From NCBI GenBank assembly GCA_028279885.1, contig JANQMX010000069.1:1-64000 (forward strand): a stretch of 64,000 nucleotides of DNA. Direction: 5' to 3'. The notes below the pieces were generated by a model. That model worked only from the letters and a program-made list of their open reading frames with translations, was not told the origin of the DNA and ran no database searches. The first letter of the stretch is position 1; each line of letters begins with the position of its first letter. The stretch comes from Rhodovibrionaceae bacterium (GTDB taxonomy: Bacteria > Pseudomonadota > Alphaproteobacteria > Kiloniellales > DSM-21159). Made by a program: the position numbers and the translations under genes. Below, one piece after another: positions 3,182 through 38,667 of the stretch.

Positions 3182-4186
3182 CTAGTCGGCTTCAAGGCCC
3201 TCGCGGCGGAGTTCGCTCGGCGTGCAGCCGAAGCGCGCCTTGAAGCTGCGGCAGAACTGGGCCTGGTCGCTGAACCCGCGATTATAGCAGATCTCCGCGA
3301 TGGTCATCTTCTTGCTGGCTGTGCGCAGATCTTCGCGCGCGGCTTCCAGCCGCATGTCGCGAATCCACTGGCCCAAGGTCTGGTTGGTGTCGCGGAAAAG
3401 CTGATGCAGATAGCGCACCGAGATGCCGCACTCGTTGGCGATCATCTCGGTGTCGAGGTCGTTGCGGTGCAGGTTCTGCATCACGAAGCGCTCGGCCCGC
3501 GAAAGATGCGCGCTGCGCACCGACGAGGCGCCGGATGTCAGGGTGCGTTCGTCGGTATGGAGGGCGAGGGCCAGCAGGTCGGCGAGTTGTTGCCCGACCA
3601 CCTCGCGCACCTCGTCGGTCATGGTGTCGTAGCGCTTCGGCAAGTGCTGCAGCATGTCGACGAACAGGCCGCCCGCGCCGTTGGTGGCGTTGAACTGCAT
3701 GCCGCAATAGCGGTCGGGCGCGCGTAGCCGGCCTTCGAGCGCTGCGGTGCCGATCTTCATGACCCAAAGCTCCGCCGTTTGACTGTGGCTGAAGTCGTAG
3801 GGCTCGTAGCTGCGCTCCAGGATGAAGCTGCCCGGGCCCGCGCGCACCTCTCGGCCGCATTGCGCGAACTCCACGTCCGACACGGTCGGGATGGTGATCA
3901 GCAGCTCCTCGCTGTTTTCGCAGGTCAGGTGCTTCGGCAGGCGGCGATAGAGCAGAGCTTCCGAACGCAGCCGGGACAGCGAAACGCTGCCTAAGCGCCA
4001 GCCGGTGATCTCTCCGTTGAAGCTGTCGGGGTTCCTGAACTTGAGATCGAGCGGGAAGTAGGTTGCCGCGATGGTCTGATGCCAGTGCGTGCTGCGGCTC
4101 TCCGGCCTGATGCCCTTCGTTGTGATCACAGTTCTCAAGACCAGTCCTCCCGCGGGATAGCTTAGACCAGCCAGTGTGCAATGCAA
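3182..4186 (-). CDS. AraC family transcriptional regulator
   Basis: C-terminal HTH_18 (IANECGISVRYLHQLFRDTNQTLGQWIRDMRLEAAREDL...IAEICYNRGFSDQAQFCRSFKARFGCTPSELR). Confidence 0.92.
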   Translation of the reverse strand: MHCTLAGLSYPAGGLVLRTVITTKGIRPESRSTHWHQTIAATYFPLDLKFRNPDSFNGEITGWRLGSVSLSRLRSEALLYRRLPKHLTCENSEELLITIPTVSDVEFAQCGREVRAGPGSFILERSYEPYDFSHSQTAELWVMKIGTAALEGRLRAPDRYCGMQFNATNGAGGLFVDMLQHLPKRYDTMTDEVREVVGQQLADLLALALHTDERTLTSGASSVRSAHLSRAERFVMQNLHRNDLDTEMIANECGISVRYLHQLFRDTNQTLGQWIRDMRLEAAREDLRTASKKMTIAEICYNRGFSDQAQFCRSFKARFGCTPSELRREGLEAD

Positions 4187-18511: not shown

Positions 18512-18654
18512 GTCACCCCGGCCCTTAGGCGAGCCCGGGACTGCTTGCAGTCCCGGCGTGCGAGACTTGGCAGCCGGGGTCCAGAAACAAGCTCGGACCT
18601 TGCCTACCGATAGATGGCTCCCGGCTCGCGGGCTTCGCCCTTGGCCGGGATGAC
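18512..18654. repeat. MITE-like palindromic intergenic repeat, copy 2
   Basis: GTCACCCCGGCCC...GCCGGGGTCCA...CTCCCGGCTCGCGGGCTTCGCCCTTGGCCGGGATGAC. Confidence 0.75.
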
Positions 18655-18755
18655 GGTTCGTGGAAACGCCTCAGACGTCTCAGGCCTCGCCGCTTCGCGG
18701 CTTGCCCAAGGATGACATTCCGAAAGGGGCCGCGGACGTCACCGCACCACAGGCC

Positions 18756-18931
18756 GTCACCCCGGCCTTGAGCCGGGGTCCATTCAGCGGCCCACGCGGA
18801 CTGTGGTCGTCGAGCACGGTCGTGGCGGCTACCCGGCTTTTCGTTCCATTGGCTGCGCGTGGTCGGACCATGCCTTCGGCAACTCGCTACGCGAGCCCGG
18901 ACACGCGGGCTTCGCCCTTGGCCGGGATGAC
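18756..18931. repeat. MITE-like palindromic intergenic repeat, copy 3
   Basis: GTCACCCCGGCCTTGAGCCGGGGTCCA...GGGCTTCGCCCTTGGCCGGGATGAC. Confidence 0.75.
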
Positions 18932-18947
18932 AGTCGGTGGAGAGGTT

Positions 18948-19865
18948 CTAAACGTCTAGTAAGCTGTCAGCGAAGTCCTGGGCGTTGAAGGGGCGCAGGT
19001 CCTCGACGCCCTCGCCGATGCCGATGGCATAGACCGGTAGGCCGAACTTCTCGGCGAGCGCCACCAGCACGCCGCCGCGGGCCGAGCCGTCGAGCTTGGT
19101 CAGCACCAGGCCGGTGACGTCGACCATCTCCTTGAAGGTGGCCACCTGCTGGATGGCGTTCTGCCCGGTGGTGGCGTCGAGCACCAGCAGCACCTCGTGC
19201 GGGGCGCTGGGGTCGATCTTCTTGATGACGCGGGAGATCTTCTGCAGCTCCGCCATCAAGCCTTCCTTGTTGTGCAGACGGCCGGCGGTGTCGATCAGCA
19301 GCAGCTCCCGCTTCTCCTCCTGCGCCTGCTTCAGCGCATCGAAGGCGAGACCGGCGGCATCGGCGCCGCTGTCTCGGGCGATGACCGGCGCGTCGACCCG
19401 CTCGCCCCAGATCTGCAGCTGCTCGATGGCTGCGGCGCGGAAAGTGTCGCCGGCGGCCAGCATGACCGTGCCGCCCGCATCCGTGTAGGCCTTGGCCAGC
19501 TTGCCGATGGTGGTGGTCTTGCCGCTGCCGTTGACGCCGACCACAAGAATCACGTGCGGGGTGTGGCTGTCGTCGACGTCCAGCGGCTCGGCCACCGGCT
19601 CCAGGATCTTGGCGATCTCCCCGGACAAGGCGCGGCGCACATCCTCGGCGCTCACATCCCGGTCGAAGCTGGTCTTGGCCAGGCTGGCGGAGAGCTTGCC
19701 GGCGGTGCTGACGCCGAGATCGGCCGAAATCAGCAGCTCCTCCAGCTCTTCCAGGGCTTCGTCGTCGAGCCGCCGGCCGGTGAAGATGCCGGCGATGCCG
19801 CCCGTCAGCTTGTCGGACGAGCGGGCGAGGCCGGACCTGAGACGCTTCAGCCAGGAGTCGCTCAC
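18948..19865 (-). CDS. ftsY: Signal recognition particle-docking protein FtsY
   Basis: SRP GTPase motifs [61 protein letters not shown]; start trimmed to GTG overlapping mtaB stop. Confidence 0.95.
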
Positions 19866-30324: not shown

Positions 30325-31557
30325 TTAGGCAGCCCACTTGATCTGGAACTCGACTTCCTGCTTGGTCTTGCCACGCTCGTGCTCGATGTTGAACACGGCA
30401 CCGGCCGGAACCGAAACGCGCTCGCCGGCGATCTGGATCTTGAAGCTCTGACCCTTCTCGACTGCTTGCGCGAAGCGGCGAAGCTTGGCGGCGAAATCCT
30501 TGGCCGAATAGGCCTTCTCGAGATCGCGCTGCAGCTTGCGGGCCGGCGACATGGGACGACGCGCCAGCGGCTTCTTGGCGCCGATGCGGCGCTTGGCCAG
30601 CGTCTTGTTGACGGTCTTCCGGGCGACCGCCTTCTTGGCGACAGTCTTCCGGGCAACCGCCTTCTTAGCGACCGGCTTCCGAGCGGTGGTCTTCCGGGCA
30701 ACCGCCTTTTTGGCGACGGCCTTGCGGGCGACCGGCTTCTTGACCGCGGTCTTGCGGACCGTGGTCTTCCGAGCGACCGGCTTCCGGGCCGTGGTCTTCC
30801 GAGCGGTGGTGGTCTTCTTGGCGACGGCCTTGCGGGCGACCGGCTTCTTAGCCGCGACCTTACGAACCGGCTTCTTGGCCGCGGTCTTGCGGACCGTGGT
30901 CTTCCGAGCGACCGGCTTCCGGGCCGTGGTCTTCCGGGCGGTGGTGGTCTTCTTGGCAACGGCCTTGCGGGCGACCGGCTTCTTGGCCGCGACCTTACGA
31001 ACCGGCTTCTTAGCCGTGGTCTTGCGGACCGTGGTCTTCCGAGCGGTGGTCTTGCGGGCCGTCGTGGTCTTCTTGGCGACCGGCTTCCGGGCCGTGGTCT
31101 TCCGAGCAGTGGTGGTCTTCTTCGCAGCCGGCTTCCGCGCGGTGGTCTTCTTGGCAACAGCCTTGCGGGCGACCGGCTTCTTGGCTGCGACCTTGCGAAC
31201 CGGCTTCTTCGCCGTGGTGGTCTTCCGAGCCGTGGTCTTCTTGGCGGTGGTGGTCTTCTTCGCCGCCGTCTTCTTGGCAACCGGCTTCTTGGCAACCGGC
31301 TTCTTGGCAACCGGCTTCTTGGCAACCGACTTCTTGGCCGCGGTCGAACGGGTGGTGCTCGTCCGCTTGGTCGCCGGGCGCTTCACAGCCGCGCGCTTCG
31401 TCGCCGGGCGCTTGGCGGCCGTGCGCTTCACGGTGCCGGTCTTGGATTTCGTGGTGGTACGCGACTTGCTGGCCGTGCCGGCCTTGCGAGTCGAGGTCTT
31501 CTTGGCAGTCCCAGCCACGGCGGCAGGGGTCGCCTTCTTTGCGGTCGCTTTCGCCAT
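30325..31557 (-). CDS. Histone H1-like Lys/Ala/Thr-rich repeat protein with C-terminal amphi-Trp-like domain
   Basis: 410 aa; ~300 aa of KKTTARKPVARK-type repeats followed by AAKLRRFAQAVEKGQSFKIQIAGERVSVPAGAVFNIEHERGKTKQEVEFQIKWAA. Confidence 0.88.
   Translation of the reverse strand: MAKATAKKATPAAVAGTAKKTSTRKAGTASKSRTTTKSKTGTVKRTAAKRPATKRAAVKRPATKRTSTTRSTAAKKSVAKKPVAKKPVAKKPVAKKTAAKKTTTAKKTTARKTTTAKKPVRKVAAKKPVARKAVAKKTTARKPAAKKTTTARKTTARKPVAKKTTTARKTTARKTTVRKTTAKKPVRKVAAKKPVARKAVAKKTTTARKTTARKPVARKTTVRKTAAKKPVRKVAAKKPVARKAVAKKTTTARKTTARKPVARKTTVRKTAVKKPVARKAVAKKAVARKTTARKPVAKKAVARKTVAKKAVARKTVNKTLAKRRIGAKKPLARRPMSPARKLQRDLEKAYSAKDFAAKLRRFAQAVEKGQSFKIQIAGERVSVPAGAVFNIEHERGKTKQEVEFQIKWAA
30751..31155. 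repeat. ~135-bp tandem coding repeats within the H1-like gene (about three units)
   Basis: CTTGCGGACCGTGGTCTTCCGAGCG recurs at 30751, 30886 and 31021 (spacing 135 bp), corresponding to a 45-aa unit; outer boundaries approximate. Confidence 0.75.
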
Positions 31558-31787: not shown

Positions 31788-32519
31788 ATGGACCACGCGC
31801 ACTATGAGCGCAGACTGTCGGCACTTCAGCGCGAGCTGTCTTTACTGCAGACCTCTTACGTCAAACGCGGCTACCGTGGCGTTGTCGTGCTCGAAGGCTG
31901 GGACGCGGCCGGTAAGGGCGGCCTGGTTCGCCGTATGGGCTGGTGCGTCGACCCGCGTTACTTCCGGGTCTGGTCGATCGGCGCGCCCAAGGACCATGAA
32001 CGCCGCGAGCATTGGATCAAACGCTTCTGGGACAAGATCCCGGAGGATGGGAACATCGCCGTCTTCGACCGCTCCTGGTACGGGCGCGTCCTGGTGGAGC
32101 GCATCGAGGGTTATGCCGAGGAGAACGACTGGCGCCGCGCCTACGCCGAGATCGCGGCCTTCGAGCAGACGCTGACCGACGAAGGCTACCGGCTGGTCAA
32201 GCTCTTCCTGGATATCTCGCCGGAAACCCAGCTCAGACGCTTCCAGGAGCGCTTCTCCAACCCGGAGAAGCGCTGGAAGATCACCGAGGAAGACCTGCGC
32301 AACCGCGCGCGCTGGCATCTCTATCAAGAGGCCTATGCGGAGATGCTGGAGAAGACCTCCGGCGCGAGCGCGCCCTGGCTGAGGCTCGACGGCAACCACA
32401 AACGGAAGCTGCGCCTGCAGGCCTTCCAGGCCATTATCGAGGGCCTCGGAAACGGCGTGGAGGTGCACGAGCCGCAGGTCTCGCCGCTCTTGCAAGCCTT
32501 CTTCCACGAACCGCGCTGA
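31788..32519 (+). CDS. Polyphosphate kinase 2 family protein
   Basis: 243 aa; VVVLEGWDAAGKGGLVRRM, PKDHERREHWIKRFWDKIPEDGNIAVFDRSWYGRVLVERIEG. Confidence 0.95.
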   Translation: MDHAHYERRLSALQRELSLLQTSYVKRGYRGVVVLEGWDAAGKGGLVRRMGWCVDPRYFRVWSIGAPKDHERREHWIKRFWDKIPEDGNIAVFDRSWYGRVLVERIEGYAEENDWRRAYAEIAAFEQTLTDEGYRLVKLFLDISPETQLRRFQERFSNPEKRWKITEEDLRNRARWHLYQEAYAEMLEKTSGASAPWLRLDGNHKRKLRLQAFQAIIEGLGNGVEVHEPQVSPLLQAFFHEPR

Positions 32520-32609
32520 GGGAGACGGCGCCTCGGACCGCTAGAAGCGGTCGATCACCGTGATGCCCGAACCCGCATAGCCGTCCATGGCGGCAAGGGC
32601 AGCGCCGGC
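32478..32609. repeat. Left flanking direct repeat of the helicase cassette (native ppk2 3' end + adh 3'-end relic)
   Basis: 132 bp, 126/132 identical to 37561-37692 by hand alignment, no indels. Confidence 0.92.
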
Positions 32610-32713
32610 CAAGAGACGGTATCCGAACACGGGGTTCTACTCTACTTTAGCTACCCGTAGCGATAGACTAATAACTCATTCAGCTAGAAATGCCCTTTTG
32701 CGAAGGCCGTAGA

Positions 32714-33889
32714 ATGTCGAGTTTTCGTGATTTGTATGAGAAATGTGAGAAGCTGGATTTGGGAGGTGTTGGACCCAAAACGCTGATCGAGCTGTTAGCA
32801 CAACGCCGCTCTTGGCGTGAGGACAAGCTTGAAGCTGCCTATTACAAAGCCACTAGTCCGACCTTTAGGACGGGCCATTCGAATTTCAGAACGTTGATCG
32901 TTCAGTTCTTGGAGCACGGTCTAATCCGCGAAAGGGAAGCAGAAACAGGATATCGCTTTGCCTTGAATAGCAATGTCTGGGAGCAAGACGTTAAGCTATT
33001 CGAAGCCCTGAACGTGCTGGTGTACTTCTTCCACTCTAACTCCGAGCACCGCTTACGGGTGGACTGCAATCTCAACACATTTCTCCGTCGTGTTGTCGGC
33101 AAGTTGGAGAATACTCCCTTTGCCAATCTGCACTACTCGGTCACTTATCCAATTGCGGGCACAATCGTCTCTCGATTGCGAGACTTCAGCGGCGACGAGA
33201 GCATCCAACGATTCCGATTCGCAACGCGGACAGCAGATCAAATTAAGGCTGGGCGTAGGCCTTCATCGCAGCCAACTCTGTTTCAACCGCAGGGGCAACG
33301 TGCGCAGCCGCGAGACAGACACCCGGCAATTCGTGCTCAGTCCGCGACGCCTGACAAACCGACGTCGCCTATCAGTCCGCCCCCTTCTGATCAATCAGCC
33401 GTTCGCGGACCAGAGCCAGAGACAGGCCCATCGAACGATCCGCCGCCCGGATTGCCCTATGGTTGTGTCAAGGTGCTAGAGCCAACCACGGTATGGCAGC
33501 CAGTCATCGATAAGCTGAACCGCGAAATGCTGAGAGCCAGTCCTTTCGCGGACAGAAATGCACTGATCATGGAGATGCACGTTACATCCACTCGGCGCCA
33601 ACGTGTGATGATCGCCGTGATGAAGCGTCGAGCGCGCTGTCACTTGCTTGTGTTCAGCCTATGCGGAGTAGTTGGCGAGGAGGTCGATTTGGTCGGTCTT
33701 CTGGCCGCCGTCGATATTGATCCGAGCGGAGCCCACCCCGCACTTCTGCGAATTGATGGAGAGCGTGTTATTGGCGTTGTCCTGACCATGCCGTTCTCAC
33801 CCGAACAAGATTTCTTTGGTCCTATCAGCACCGTTGGCAAATTGGCAGACCATCTGGAAGCATCCTTTTGGGGCGTGGACGAGTACTGA
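32714..33889 (+). CDS. Hypothetical protein, cassette gene 1 (possible YbjN/chaperone-like C-terminus)
   Basis: ORF 32690-33889; likely start MSSFRDLYEKCEKL at 32714. Two conserved-looking ends joined by a Pro/Ser/Gln-rich linker; stop overlaps start of the next gene (TGATG). Confidence 0.8.
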   Translation: MSSFRDLYEKCEKLDLGGVGPKTLIELLAQRRSWREDKLEAAYYKATSPTFRTGHSNFRTLIVQFLEHGLIREREAETGYRFALNSNVWEQDVKLFEALNVLVYFFHSNSEHRLRVDCNLNTFLRRVVGKLENTPFANLHYSVTYPIAGTIVSRLRDFSGDESIQRFRFATRTADQIKAGRRPSSQPTLFQPQGQRAQPRDRHPAIRAQSATPDKPTSPISPPPSDQSAVRGPEPETGPSNDPPPGLPYGCVKVLEPTTVWQPVIDKLNREMLRASPFADRNALIMEMHVTSTRRQRVMIAVMKRRARCHLLVFSLCGVVGEEVDLVGLLAAVDIDPSGAHPALLRIDGERVIGVVLTMPFSPEQDFFGPISTVGKLADHLEASFWGVDEY

Positions 33890-36800
33890 TGGCTGATAAA
33901 ACCACTCAAGAGGAGAACGCGTTAGAAGCCGATCCAATTCAGCCTTTCGCGCCTCAGCGAGAAGAGGCGTTCCGTAGGGAGAGCTACTCCGGCGGTTCCC
34001 CGCTTGAACAAATGATACTAGCGCTGAGCGACGAGATCGATTTCGCCCAGCACAATGCCCGTAAGCAAACGCTAAAAAATGGCGAGCGAATAGGCGAGTT
34101 GGGAGGACTCCATCTATACTCGTTTCCTTTAGATCGCGCTTTCGATTTTGAGGCAGATGAAGACGTGGCCGTCGCCATCGGGGGACGCGATTACCGAGGA
34201 CGTATAGTCAGAATCGAGTTAGCGTCTGTGGTGATTGGTATCGACGAGCATCGCGGTGAAGCTCTAGCCCGCGTCGATATCACCAGAGCCGAAGACATCA
34301 TCGAGAAGCTTCTTCGCAAACAACTGGCGGCCGTATTTGAAGGGAAGCTGCCAGGATTCAATAAGAGCCAAGCCGACTATGTGATCGGGCAAGGCGAGCC
34401 GGAATCAAACACGACATCCATACCTGAGTTGGTAGACATATTCCTTTCTGTAAAAAGTTTTGCGCTTAACCCCGAGCAGCAAACCTTCATCAGTAAGGCG
34501 CTTGCATCCGAGCTAACGCTTCTCTGGGGACCACCGGGATGCGGGAAAACTCTGTGCATCGGACTGTTGGCCGCTTGTCTGCTGGCTCAGAACAAGCGGG
34601 TGCTGCTCGCTTCCAACACCAACAAAGCCGTAGACGGTGCATTGCACCAAGTGTTGCAAACGCAGCAAGACATCAATGAAGAGACCGACGATGGAACAAT
34701 CATCCGTTTCAGCGGTGCCGGTATCACGGATGAGTTCAAGAGAGATTGGCCAAGCTACCTGCTGGATGAAATTCAGCGAAAGCGTGGTGAGGACCTAGAG
34801 GCTGAAAAGTCCAAGCTCCAAGCTGAACAATCCGCTAGAGCAGCGGACTTGGCTAAATGTGAACAGGGTTTGGAAATCCACGAAGGTTATCGTCAACTCC
34901 AGCAGCGACGCTCCAGCGCTCCTCGGGAGATAAAAGATTGTCAGGCCGCCCTCGAAGGGCTTCGCCGACAAATGAGCGAACTCGAGGAAGTGCGGAGAAA
35001 TCTGGAGGCAGAATGGGCCGACGCGCCTGAAACGCCTACGCTCGTGAGCCGCCTAACTAGGAAGCGGCCACGAGGGGAAATCGAGGCACAACGTCTTCAA
35101 TGCCAAGACCAAATAAAGCGCACCCAGGTCAGGTTAGAAGAGCGAACACAACGTTTGGCAGCCCTGAAACATGAACGGACGCAGCTTGAGAAACTTACTG
35201 TCGAGCTGACTGAACGGCTCAAGAGAATACGACCTGAGAGCGATCTGAAGTCTGAACAGCAAACGCTCCGATCTCGCCTTTCCGAACTCGACACGCGCCT
35301 ACAGGAAATTGATCAAGCACTTGGTGACTTACGCAGGAGTATTCTGAGCGAAGCTCGTCTGATTGGCACGACAGTTCACAAGACTTTCCTAGACCCACTG
35401 CTTTCAAGCCTCGAATTCGATGCCGTGATCGTAGACGAGGCCAGCATGGTTGTGCTCCCGATGATCTACTGGGCAGCGGGCCGCGCTAAGGCTCAAGTGA
35501 TCGTCGTCGGTGACTTTCAACAACTGCCTGCAATCATCAAAAACACCGATAGTGAACTAGTTGGCGAGTGGTTGGCATGTTCTCCATTCGATAAATGGCA
35601 TGTCCCCGACGCCGTCCAGAAGGGAAGCACGAAGGACCTCCCTTTTCTGGTCGCGCTTCAAGAGCAGAACCGAATGCACCCAGAAATCGGGCGCCTGGTC
35701 TCAGACCTGTTCTATTCCGACATTCACACGCCCAAAGGAAATGGGCTCCTGCCGGGCCCCCGTGCAAAGAGCCAAGTGTCGAGCTCCCAGCGGCTGCCCC
35801 AACAAAAGACTGACAAGCGCATCACCACCATTGACACAAGAGACCTCGGAGGCTGGTCCAGCCAGCCTTACGAAGGATCAGGCCGATTCAACCCAACGCA
35901 TGTTGCGCTAGGGTTGGCCTTGATAGACCGCTTTGCGCTGGCCGGTGTGTTGGAGGCAGGGGAAAACAGTCAAGTCGGCTTTGTCACGCCTTACGCTGGC
36001 CAGGCCAGGCTATTCACAAAGGCAGCAGAACAGCGTCACCACGACTTAATCGATCAAACCAGTATCGGCACTGCCCACCGGTTTCAGGGCGGTGAGCGCG
36101 ATATCATTATCTTCGACTATGTTCTTTCGGAGAACCGGCGCTACCCGTCTCGCTTTATCGATTCGAAAGACGGACGTGACCAACCGGCCAATTTGCTCAA
36201 CGTGGCCCTTAGTCGGGCGAAGAAGCACCTAATAGTGATTTACAACTCCGACGATTTCGGTGAGCGAGGCACCCATCCATGGATGCGCAATTTCTTTCAG
36301 ACCTTGGTAGAGCGTTCAGAGGCTCTTGATGCCAAGCAACTTCTGCAAGAATCTGACGTTCTTGGGCAAGTGCGTGAATTGGCGAGTGGCCGTGCATTCA
36401 CGGTCGAGGAAGGCAACACACTTCACGACGAAACCAGCTTTTACGCGGCCGTTCGCAAGGATCTCGTTTCGGCACGACAGGCTGTCTTAATCTTTAGCGC
36501 ATTTGCCACTCCTGAGAATGTCGCTCGTTGGGCCGATTTGTTTCAGTCCATGCTTGAGCGAGGCGTGAGAATCAGGGTTGTCACCAAACCCGCACGAAGT
36601 CAGCCAAATGCACAGCGAAACAGCCAGCAGCTGATGGCCATGTTCGACACGTTGCGACGCGCGGGCATCGTTATCGACACTCGATCGGCAACCCACGAGA
36701 AAGCTGTCGTGATCGACAGCAAAATCGTCTGGCATGGGTCGCTCAACATGCTTTCGCAGAATGTTGCGCGCACGACAGAGCTAATGACCCGCACTGTCTC

Positions 36801-37524
36801 GTCGGAGTATGCCAATGAACTACTCCGCATGCTGGCCCGCCATGATCTGAAGCAACAGGATCTAACCTTACAGCAGTTACCGGTCTGTCCGACCTGTAGC
36901 GGTCCGACGACTCTAGGCGCGAATTGGAAAGGACAGCGGTTTCTCTTCTGCGAACAGGATTGTGGATTCATCGCCGCAGCCTGGGACTTTCACAAGCTTG
37001 CTCACGGACTGCCCATAGGGAAGCACTTGCATCGCTGCCCGGCTTGTCGAAGCGGTAGCGTGGTGGTTGCTCAGACAAAGCGAGGGCGCACCTATGGTCG
37101 CTGTAATAGCAGTGGTCGTAGCGGCGGCCCGAAGTGCAAGCACCAAGAAGAGCTTCGGCTAACCGATCTACCGGCCTATGAACCCTACCCCGAGCCCAAG
37201 GCACCAGAACCTTCCATTTTGGCTGAACTAACAATCGAAGCTGCTGACACGTTCGCGTCACCACCGTCTGCTAGGTCAACAGTAGGCGAGGTGGCCGTGC
37301 CTTCGAAGAAGAAGATGAAGAAGCAAGACGCCACGTCGTCGGGAAGGCGACCGACATCGCATTCCTCTGAAGGGCCAAGTCAATCTCCTGCAAACAAGAC
37401 TAGCTACAAGACCAAACCATCGCCTTCGATCTCACGGTCTCAGCAGGACGAGGCGAAGAAGGGTCGTCGTAGGCGCCCCAAAGATGCTGCCGAACTGGAC
37501 GCCTATCTCTCATCGCTAAGCTGA
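33889..37524 (+). CDS. SF1 (Upf1/COG1112-like) helicase with central coiled coil, PLD-like nuclease domain and Cys-rich C-terminal modules; Mokosh-type helicase-PLD candidate
   Basis: Walker A LLWGPPGCGKTLC; motif II AVIVDEASM; GDFQQLPAI; TAHRFQGGERDIIIFD; LNVALSRAKKHLIVI; PLD half-motif THEKAVVIDSKIVWHGSLNML (HxKxxxxD); CPTC...CEQDC and CPACRSG...C clusters. Start trimmed from 33868 to ATG 33889. Confidence 0.93.
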   Translation: MADKTTQEENALEADPIQPFAPQREEAFRRESYSGGSPLEQMILALSDEIDFAQHNARKQTLKNGERIGELGGLHLYSFPLDRAFDFEADEDVAVAIGGRDYRGRIVRIELASVVIGIDEHRGEALARVDITRAEDIIEKLLRKQLAAVFEGKLPGFNKSQADYVIGQGEPESNTTSIPELVDIFLSVKSFALNPEQQTFISKALASELTLLWGPPGCGKTLCIGLLAACLLAQNKRVLLASNTNKAVDGALHQVLQTQQDINEETDDGTIIRFSGAGITDEFKRDWPSYLLDEIQRKRGEDLEAEKSKLQAEQSARAADLAKCEQGLEIHEGYRQLQQRRSSAPREIKDCQAALEGLRRQMSELEEVRRNLEAEWADAPETPTLVSRLTRKRPRGEIEAQRLQCQDQIKRTQVRLEERTQRLAALKHERTQLEKLTVELTERLKRIRPESDLKSEQQTLRSRLSELDTRLQEIDQALGDLRRSILSEARLIGTTVHKTFLDPLLSSLEFDAVIVDEASMVVLPMIYWAAGRAKAQVIVVGDFQQLPAIIKNTDSELVGEWLACSPFDKWHVPDAVQKGSTKDLPFLVALQEQNRMHPEIGRLVSDLFYSDIHTPKGNGLLPGPRAKSQVSSSQRLPQQKTDKRITTIDTRDLGGWSSQPYEGSGRFNPTHVALGLALIDRFALAGVLEAGENSQVGFVTPYAGQARLFTKAAEQRHHDLIDQTSIGTAHRFQGGERDIIIFDYVLSENRRYPSRFIDSKDGRDQPANLLNVALSRAKKHLIVIYNSDDFGERGTHPWMRNFFQTLVERSEALDAKQLLQESDVLGQVRELASGRAFTVEEGNTLHDETSFYAAVRKDLVSARQAVLIFSAFATPENVARWADLFQSMLERGVRIRVVTKPARSQPNAQRNSQQLMAMFDTLRRAGIVIDTRSATHEKAVVIDSKIVWHGSLNMLSQNVARTTELMTRTVSSEYANELLRMLARHDLKQQDLTLQQLPVCPTCSGPTTLGANWKGQRFLFCEQDCGFIAAAWDFHKLAHGLPIGKHLHRCPACRSGSVVVAQTKRGRTYGRCNSSGRSGGPKCKHQEELRLTDLPAYEPYPEPKAPEPSILAELTIEAADTFASPPSARSTVGEVAVPSKKKMKKQDATSSGRRPTSHSSEGPSQSPANKTSYKTKPSPSISRSQQDEAKKGRRRRPKDAAELDAYLSSLS

Positions 37525-37560
37525 TGCTGGCGGCTCGTCTCAACTACCTGTGCGTTTGAA

Positions 37561-37692
37561 GTCTCGCCGCTCTTGCAAGCCTTCTTCCACGAACCGCGCT
37601 GAGGGAGGCGGTGTCTCGGACCGCTAGAAGCGGTCGATCACCGTGATGCCGGAACCCGTGTAGCCGTCCATGGCGGCAAGGGCAGCGCCGGC
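37561..37692. repeat. Right flanking direct repeat of the helicase cassette (ppk2 3'-end relic + native adh 3' end)
   Basis: 132 bp; begins with GTCTCGCCGCTCTTGCAAGCCTTCTTCCACGAACCGCGCTGA, identical to the ppk2 3' end (VSPLLQAFFHEPR*). Confidence 0.92.
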
Positions 37693-38667
37693 GTCTTCCA
37701 GGGCAATCGTCTTGGTCACCAGCCGCGCCGGATCCAGGCGGCCGCTGGCGATCATGGCGAAGAGCGCCGGGAAGCGCCCGGCGGCGATGCCGCGGGTGCC
37801 CATGATGGCGATCTGCCGGGCATAGACCAGTTCCAGGAGCGGCAGGCTCGGCTCGGCATGGCGGCCCAGCGGCATGCCGATCTGCACATGGCGGCCAAGG
37901 CGGGCAAGGCCGCGGATAGAGTTGTGGAAGGTCTCGGTGATGCCCAGCGCATCGAGAGAGACCTGGGCGCCGCCGCCGGTCAGATCCCGTATCGCCTCAC
38001 CGGCATCCGACAGATCGGCGACATTGAGCGTTTTGCTGGCGCCGAGCTCCGCCGCCAGGGTCAGCGCCTTCTCATTGACGTCGACGGCCAGCACCGGGGT
38101 CCCGAGCGCCGCGCCGATCATCACGGCGGCCAGACCGACGCCGCCGCAGCCGTGCACGGCCAGCCACTCGCCGGGCTTGAGCTCGGCCCGGTCGACCAGC
38201 GCGCGGAAGGCGGTGGTCACGCGGCAACCCATGCCGGCCGCTTCGACGAAGCCGATCTCCTCCGGCAGGGCGACCAGATTGAAGTCGGCGCGGGGCAGGG
38301 GCAGTCGCTCGGCGAAAGCCCCCCAGGCGGTGAAGCCGATCACTTGCTGATCGCCGCAAACCGTGGGGTCGCCGCCCAGGCACTCCGGACAGTGGCCGCA
38401 GGCCAGGATGAAAGGCGCCGTCACGCTGTCGCCAATCCGGAAGCGCTGGCAGTCGGGCCCGACCTCGATCACCACGCCGGCGAACTCGTGGCCCGGTACG
38501 TGGGGCGGCGTGACGTCCGGGTCGGCGCCCTTCCAGGCGTGCCAGTCGGAGCGGCAGACGCCGCAGGCCTCCACCTCCACCAGCACGCCGTCGTGCGGGC
38601 AGCTCGGTTCCGCGACCTCGCGAACCTGAAGCGGCGCATTGGCCGCGTCGAAGACAGCCGCTCTCAT
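37624..38667 (-). CDS. Zinc-dependent alcohol dehydrogenase family protein
   Basis: 347 aa; CGVCRSDWHAWKG, GHEFAGVVIEVG, CGHCPECLGGDPTVC, HGCGGVGLAAVMIG. Confidence 0.95.
   Translation of the reverse strand: MRAAVFDAANAPLQVREVAEPSCPHDGVLVEVEACGVCRSDWHAWKGADPDVTPPHVPGHEFAGVVIEVGPDCQRFRIGDSVTAPFILACGHCPECLGGDPTVCGDQQVIGFTAWGAFAERLPLPRADFNLVALPEEIGFVEAAGMGCRVTTAFRALVDRAELKPGEWLAVHGCGGVGLAAVMIGAALGTPVLAVDVNEKALTLAAELGASKTLNVADLSDAGEAIRDLTGGGAQVSLDALGITETFHNSIRGLARLGRHVQIGMPLGRHAEPSLPLLELVYARQIAIMGTRGIAAGRFPALFAMIASGRLDPARLVTKTIALEDAGAALAAMDGYTGSGITVIDRF

Follow-up and report, generated by a model that had tools for sequence, protein, structure and literature searches.

A repeat-bounded pair of genes encoding an orphan protein and a Mokosh-like helicase-nuclease in a Rhodovibrionaceae genome

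Introduction

What is the function of a protein of no recognised family whose stop codon overlaps the start codon of a large helicase-nuclease gene, and did the two genes arrive in the genome together? These questions are raised by a window of 64,000 nt, the whole stretch of DNA analysed here (Rhodovibrionaceae bacterium, assembly GCA_028279885.1, contig JANQMX010000069.1, positions 1 to 64,000, forward strand). An earlier note on this DNA took the overlap between the upstream gene (gene 1) and the helicase gene (gene 2) as a sign of coupled expression and of a functional pair, and stated that no described helicase-PLD defence system is known to have such a partner. Mokosh is a described defence system combining a helicase with PLD, and is known in types I and II (PMC11672841, PMC11291487). 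A kinase domain is reported for type I, whereas the description of type II has one gene and no partner (PMC11672841). The gene pair described here is real, unusual and foreign; its effector is Mokosh-like and its partner is present in no catalogue searched.

Results

A foreign insert bounded by direct repeats

The sequence bears out the overlap, coordinates and layout of the two genes as given in the earlier note (Table 1): the TGA of gene 1 (33887-33889) and the ATG of gene 2 (33889-33891) share one base. The start of gene 1 is preceded by an SD-like GAAGG (32702-32706) at a distance of 7 nt, and an upstream in-frame ATG at 32690 has no SD-like site.

Table 1. Features of the gene pair and its surroundings (positions in the window)
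Feature	Position	Strand	Evidence
Left copy of 132-bp direct repeat: PPK2 3' end, palindrome GACCGCTAGAAGCGGTC, vestigial ADH 3' end	32478..32609		Repeat search and alignment; 6 mismatches against right copy
Insert left end, 104-bp leader, presumed operon promoter region	32610..32713	+	No sigma-70 consensus match
Gene 1, 391-aa orphan protein, stop overlapping gene 2 start	32714..33889	+	Open ORF, no homologue found
Gene 1 residues 1-178, N-terminal and helical, perhaps with a winged helix around residues 20-90	32714..33247	+	AF2 secondary structure, pLDDT about 40
Gene 1 Pro/Ser/Gln-rich linker, residues 186-253	33269..33472	+	Composition
Gene 1 residues 256-391, C-terminal alpha/beta domain predicted as alpha-beta3-alpha-beta2-alpha	33479..33886	+	AF2, domain alone, pLDDT 44
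TGATG stop/start overlap of genes 1 and 2	33887..33891	+	Sequence
Gene 2, 1211-aa SF1B helicase-PLD protein	33889..37524	+	Pfam AAA_11 E 1.5e-32, AAA_12 E 2.2e-23, PLDc_2 E 1.7e-12
Gene 2 N-terminal domain, residues 41-182, common to cyanobacterial helicases	34009..34434	+	Sequence comparison
Gene 2 Walker A GPPGCGKT, residues 214-221	34528..34551	+	Motif scan
Gene 2 PLD nuclease domain, residues 858-982	36460..36834	+	Pfam, motif scan
Gene 2 HKD motif HEKAVVID, residues 936-943	36694-36717	+	Motif scan
Two probable Cys4 zinc ribbons of gene 2, CPTC/CEQDC and CPAC/C..C, residues about 1000-1085	36886..37143	+	CxxC scan; similar spacing in L005 and L006
Gene 2 polar tail of about 120 aa, residues 1091-1211, probably disordered	37159..37521	+	Sequence comparison
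Right copy of 132-bp direct repeat, including intact ADH 3' end	37561..37692		Repeat search, alignment
ADH gene	37624-38667	minus	3' end inside right repeat copy

The pair is placed between the convergent genes for PPK2 and an alcohol dehydrogenase (ADH). A repeat search around it adds to the earlier note a 132-bp direct repeat bounding the pair, with copies 95% identical (6 differing positions) and 5,083 bp apart. The resulting insert of 5,083 bp carries gene 1 and gene 2 alone, and the 4,951 bp between the copies (32610-37560) hold only these two genes. Each copy contains a 17-bp palindrome between the last 42 bp of PPK2, stop codon included, and the final bases of ADH. PPK2 is completed by the left copy and ADH by the right one, and therefore neither neighbour is broken. 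The GC content is 54% in the insert against 65% in the flanks. At third codon positions it amounts to 0.571 in gene 1 and 0.575 in gene 2, compared with 0.85-0.91 in uvrB, PPK2 and ADH, the three neighbours measured.

The repeat listing for the whole window contains no second flanking repeat pair of such kind. The other repeats in the window are a 61-bp direct repeat (18620-18680 and 18897-18957, 79% identical, 277 bp apart) and tandem repeats near 30.6-31.4 kb. On the minus strand, 30325-31557 encodes a 410-aa Lys/Ala-rich repetitive protein, histone H1-like, with AKKxxARKPVAKK repeats and many tandem 15-bp units. The left end of the insert (32610-32617) begins with CAAGAGAC and the right repeat (37561-37575) with GTCTCgccgCTCTTG, an approximate inverted match that may be due to chance. 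There is no recombinase inside the insert, as 32610-37560 is taken up by the two genes and a recombinase is encoded by neither. The insertion site displays no promoter consensus, RNA family or tRNA to explain it, and the neighbours read (PPK2, ADH and housekeeping genes) include no further gene recognisable as a defence gene.

Comparison with a same-genus genome (L123, G001 contig 499) shows collinear PPK2 and ADH neighbourhoods, with the main blocks at 82-85% DNA identity. The gene pair is absent from the PPK2-ADH junction of this genome, where a RidA-type (Ribonuc_L-PSP) gene is found instead (3520-3906); the junction is therefore variable. In the host genome, we infer, a direct PPK2-ADH junction must have preceded the duplication of the repeat. 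The pair thus has what is expected of a mobile cassette: foreign composition, flanking direct repeats and absence from the same junction in a relative. The two genes were probably acquired together, because the pair alone fills a repeat-bounded, low-GC insert missing from the same-genus genome, and this argument is stronger than the overlap alone. The functional pairing proposed from the overlap likewise gains support, since the two genes by themselves form one foreign insert and agree in their codon-position GC. Site-specific recombination in trans and a single crossover of a circle are the candidate routes of entry. An assembly artefact is possible, but synteny holds on both sides and six positions distinguish the repeat copies.

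Gene 2 is Mokosh-like but lies outside the MkoC clade

The best PDB relatives of gene 2 are Upf1 and SMUBP-2, and DNA2 is also among its solved relatives. The motif scan placed DEAS at residues 516-519 and VALSRA from residue 772; together with Walker A and HKD, all four motifs are intact. In PADLOC the best matches are MkoA (E 5.9e-58) and MkoC (E 1.3e-48). Like gene 2, MkoC of Mokosh type II joins an SF1 helicase (AAA_11/AAA_12) and, behind it, PLD with HKD in one protein, but the N-terminal domain, zinc ribbons and tail of gene 2 do not correspond to MkoC. Two true MkoC proteins score 1355-1538 bits against the MkoC profile over 1-1135, whereas gene 2 reaches 164 bits, with a best stretch of 857-1116 of 1136, and gives no full-length match. 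Mokosh type I (MkoA and MkoB) is likewise a two-gene operon with helicase and PLD. Its PLD is encoded by a separate gene, mkoB, while here PLD is fused to the helicase and the partner, gene 1, has none. The Ser/Thr kinase domain of type I is found in neither gene 1 nor gene 2.

Similarity searches and phylogeny place gene 2 nearer to other helicases. It scores 197 bits with phmmer to a helicase of Aulosira (L005), against 34-41 bits to MkoC. In the maximum-likelihood tree of helicase domains, which is small in sampling, does not include L067 and shows gene 2 as a long branch, it joins helicases of Aulosira, Nostoc and Cytobacillus (L005, L006, L026) with support of 98/98. This clade is grouped beside MkoA and apart from MkoC, which forms its own group (98/97), and gene 2 thus falls outside the MkoC clade and is not an MkoC orthologue. 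Judged on domain content it appears Mokosh-like, yet it is not filed as Mokosh.

The cyanobacterial helicases (L005, L006, L067) and the Cytobacillus one (L026) are 26-28% identical to gene 2. The cyanobacterial proteins have its N-terminal domain in common, and L005 and L006 also both CxxC positions. L005, L006 and L026, read to the end, differ from gene 2 in having no HKD motif, PLDc_2 match, tail or gene 1. The tail of gene 2, about 120 aa, is accordingly missing in relatives that lack gene 1, although such cases are few. The C-terminal region of the L005 protein resembles a degenerate PLD domain lacking HKD, with no Pfam match. In Aulosira (L005, 7965-10592) and Nostoc linckia (L067, 1-1164) the helicase related to gene 2 has a Mokosh type I mkoA-mkoB pair as its head-to-head neighbour. 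No other match to gene 2 was found in 399 phylum genomes at 1e-40, and none was convincing in 385 class genomes. A pattern scan of genomes for its N-terminal motif gave 37 loci, one of them real (Nostoc linckia L067). A match in Nonomuraea was rejected, as no helicase match is found there. In other SF1 helicases (L079, 4217-8260; L084, 3053-6415; L085, 3812-7042) the C-terminal nuclease is Toprim or MTES_1575 in place of PLD, so that one helicase plan is combined with exchangeable nucleases.

Gene 1 is an orphan with a predicted two-domain layout

The searches conducted with gene 1 returned no match in PADLOC and none among PDB sequences; its halves have no meaningful NCBIfam match, and the Pfam and PHROGs matches are all sub-threshold. 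No convincing relative of gene 1 was found in 192 related genomes, in 63 genomes of its order, or in plasmids or phages; the same holds for its C-terminal domain in 389 phylum genomes and for its N-terminal region in 181 class genomes. Scanning 84,980 species and viral contigs by pattern, an approach that reaches no further than close relatives, yielded none. Reading of the matching sequences placed three matches of 24% identity (G416, G464, G488) inside an MgtC-like membrane protein, one (G289) in an FAD-oxidase-like protein and another (G070) in a histidine-kinase-like protein. A match in Curtobacterium is antisense, and most of those from the order search involve the low-complexity linker or reading frames interrupted by stops. 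The N-termini of MkoC bear no resemblance to gene 1. Gene 1 is an orphan in all collections searched, and the weak matches examined are due to chance. The earlier statement on described helicase-PLD defence systems holds in part only: Mokosh is such a system, but a gene 1-like partner occurs in neither of its types as described (PMC11672841, PMC11291487).

The domain layout proposed for gene 1 is largely retained. The linker of about 65 aa is real, with 44% Pro/Ser/Gln over residues 186-253. The N-terminal domain, as had been noted, belongs to no recognised family: its only match, to PF24882 WHD_ORC2 over residues 43-79 (E 0.006, 16.6 bits), is under the cut-off of 27.3. Combined with reading of the sequence, this match makes a winged helix around residues 20-90 possible. 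Structure prediction followed by Foldseek, the check suggested beforehand, gave poor models and nothing significant. AlphaFold run without an alignment reached a pLDDT of 41 for the whole protein and 44 for the C-terminal domain, and the predicted secondary structure agrees, at this low confidence, with two domains.

The resemblance of the C-terminal domain to YbjN or secretion chaperones fared less evenly. Class I type III chaperones and YbjN proteins are built as alpha-beta3-alpha-beta2-alpha, and the predicted strand and helix order of the domain is compatible with this fold. The likeness to the YbjN/TY-chaperone superfamily (class I type III chaperones, AmyR, DR1245, TY-Chap1-3) lies in this predicted order, but there is no sequence match or significant fold match. 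Pfam gives no YbjN match for the domain. Alignment to 25 YbjN proteins with hhalign, of little power with a single-sequence query, gave a probability of 0.2% and a score of 12.1, with shuffled controls scoring up to 20.6. Foldseek with the domain model lists SrcA at rank 2 (E 0.35) and CesT at rank 15 (E 2.4), neither significant, in alignments spanning most of the length of SrcA and CesT. Matches of full-length gene 1 to RNA-phage coat proteins (E 0.1 or worse) are noise from a bad model. TY-chaperones are found in bacterial conflict systems (PMC9503650), and DR1245, of the YbjN fold, binds the SSB-like DdrB (PMC3575483).

Discussion

Taken together, these observations suggest a tiny mobile gene pair, probably directed against viruses. 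The reading that we prefer, tentatively and at somewhat under an even chance, is that of a horizontally acquired two-gene Mokosh-like defence cassette against phages or invading DNA or RNA, with gene 1 as its recognition or control subunit. Defence would be exerted by the action of the helicase-nuclease on foreign nucleic acid, under the control of gene 1. Judging from its motifs, the SF1B helicase of gene 2 would translocate on foreign nucleic acid, and its PLD nuclease, with HKD intact and presumably dimeric, would cut it, as proposed for Mokosh. Gene 1 would serve as a dedicated, co-translated control or recognition subunit of gene 2. Nucleic acid may be contacted by its winged-helix-like N-terminal region, while the chaperone-like domain at its C-terminus, on a flexible linker, may grip gene 2, perhaps at the disordered tail, so that gene 1 would restrain the nuclease until a trigger appears. 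Speaking against this reading are the neighbours read, in which no other defence gene stands out, the orphan status of gene 1 and its poor models. Type III chaperones bind extended segments of their clients. Holding of the tail by gene 1 would be analogous, and the one observation that points to it is the absence of the tail in relatives without gene 1.

Gene 1 might instead be only an autoregulatory DNA-binding transcription factor, leaving gene 2 to work alone like MkoC of Mokosh type II. The possible N-terminal winged helix, the first position of gene 1 in the operon and the existence of solo helicase relatives (L026, L005, L006) fit this explanation, but gene 1, with 391 aa, a long linker and an alpha/beta domain of its own, is bigger than one would expect of a simple repressor. 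The one-base coupling suggests matched amounts of both proteins, and no operator was identified in the leader of only 104 bp; we consider the explanation unlikely. Somewhat less likely still is a chaperone role, in which gene 1 would assist the folding or stability of gene 2 by means of a YbjN- or type III chaperone-like C-terminal domain. The predicted order of the domain, the non-significant SrcA and CesT matches and the binding of DdrB by DR1245 would agree with such a role, but the hhalign score below the best shuffled controls provides no sequence link to YbjN, and the model of the domain is of low confidence.

An unrestrained nuclease can be toxic, and two tightly coupled genes with the smaller partner upstream, alone on an apparently mobile insert, recall an addiction module akin to toxin-antitoxin pairs. 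Gene 2 would then be the toxic nuclease and gene 1 its neutraliser, serving selfish maintenance rather than phage blocking. A helicase-nuclease of 1211 aa far exceeds the usual toxin size, however, and helicase and zinc ribbons imply a specific substrate, which makes this improbable. Repair or RNA-processing cargo unrelated to defence, in a decayed integrative element, is the least probable explanation: Upf1/SMUBP-2/DNA2-type helicases are used in repair and RNA decay and the insert has no integrase, but gene 2 is rare and patchily distributed (399 phylum and 385 class genomes), carries an HKD nuclease and has defence proteins as its nearest curated matches (PADLOC).

For the preferred reading, a defence cassette controlled by gene 1, a more specific form can be put forward, which we regard as doubtful though likelier than any of these alternatives. 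It would be a new two-protein defence system, with a helicase-PLD effector outside the MkoC clade, an orphan adaptor of winged helix, linker and chaperone-like domain, and a minimal cassette, devoid of a recombinase, whose 132-bp duplication of a convergent-gene junction leaves both neighbours intact. No second instance of the gene pair was found in the collections searched. The trigger and control of the Mokosh-like class were not found described in the Mokosh papers cited (PMC11672841, PMC11291487). Should the helicase-nuclease be under the control of gene 1, this class would gain a regulatory or recognition subunit, in a testable two-protein system. The cassette itself, with two genes, 132-bp repeats and no recombinase, is a clean example of a small pair landing without harm to its neighbours. 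If an orphan is found nowhere but next to a helicase effector, homology-based catalogues may be unable to keep pace with the divergence of accessory defence subunits.
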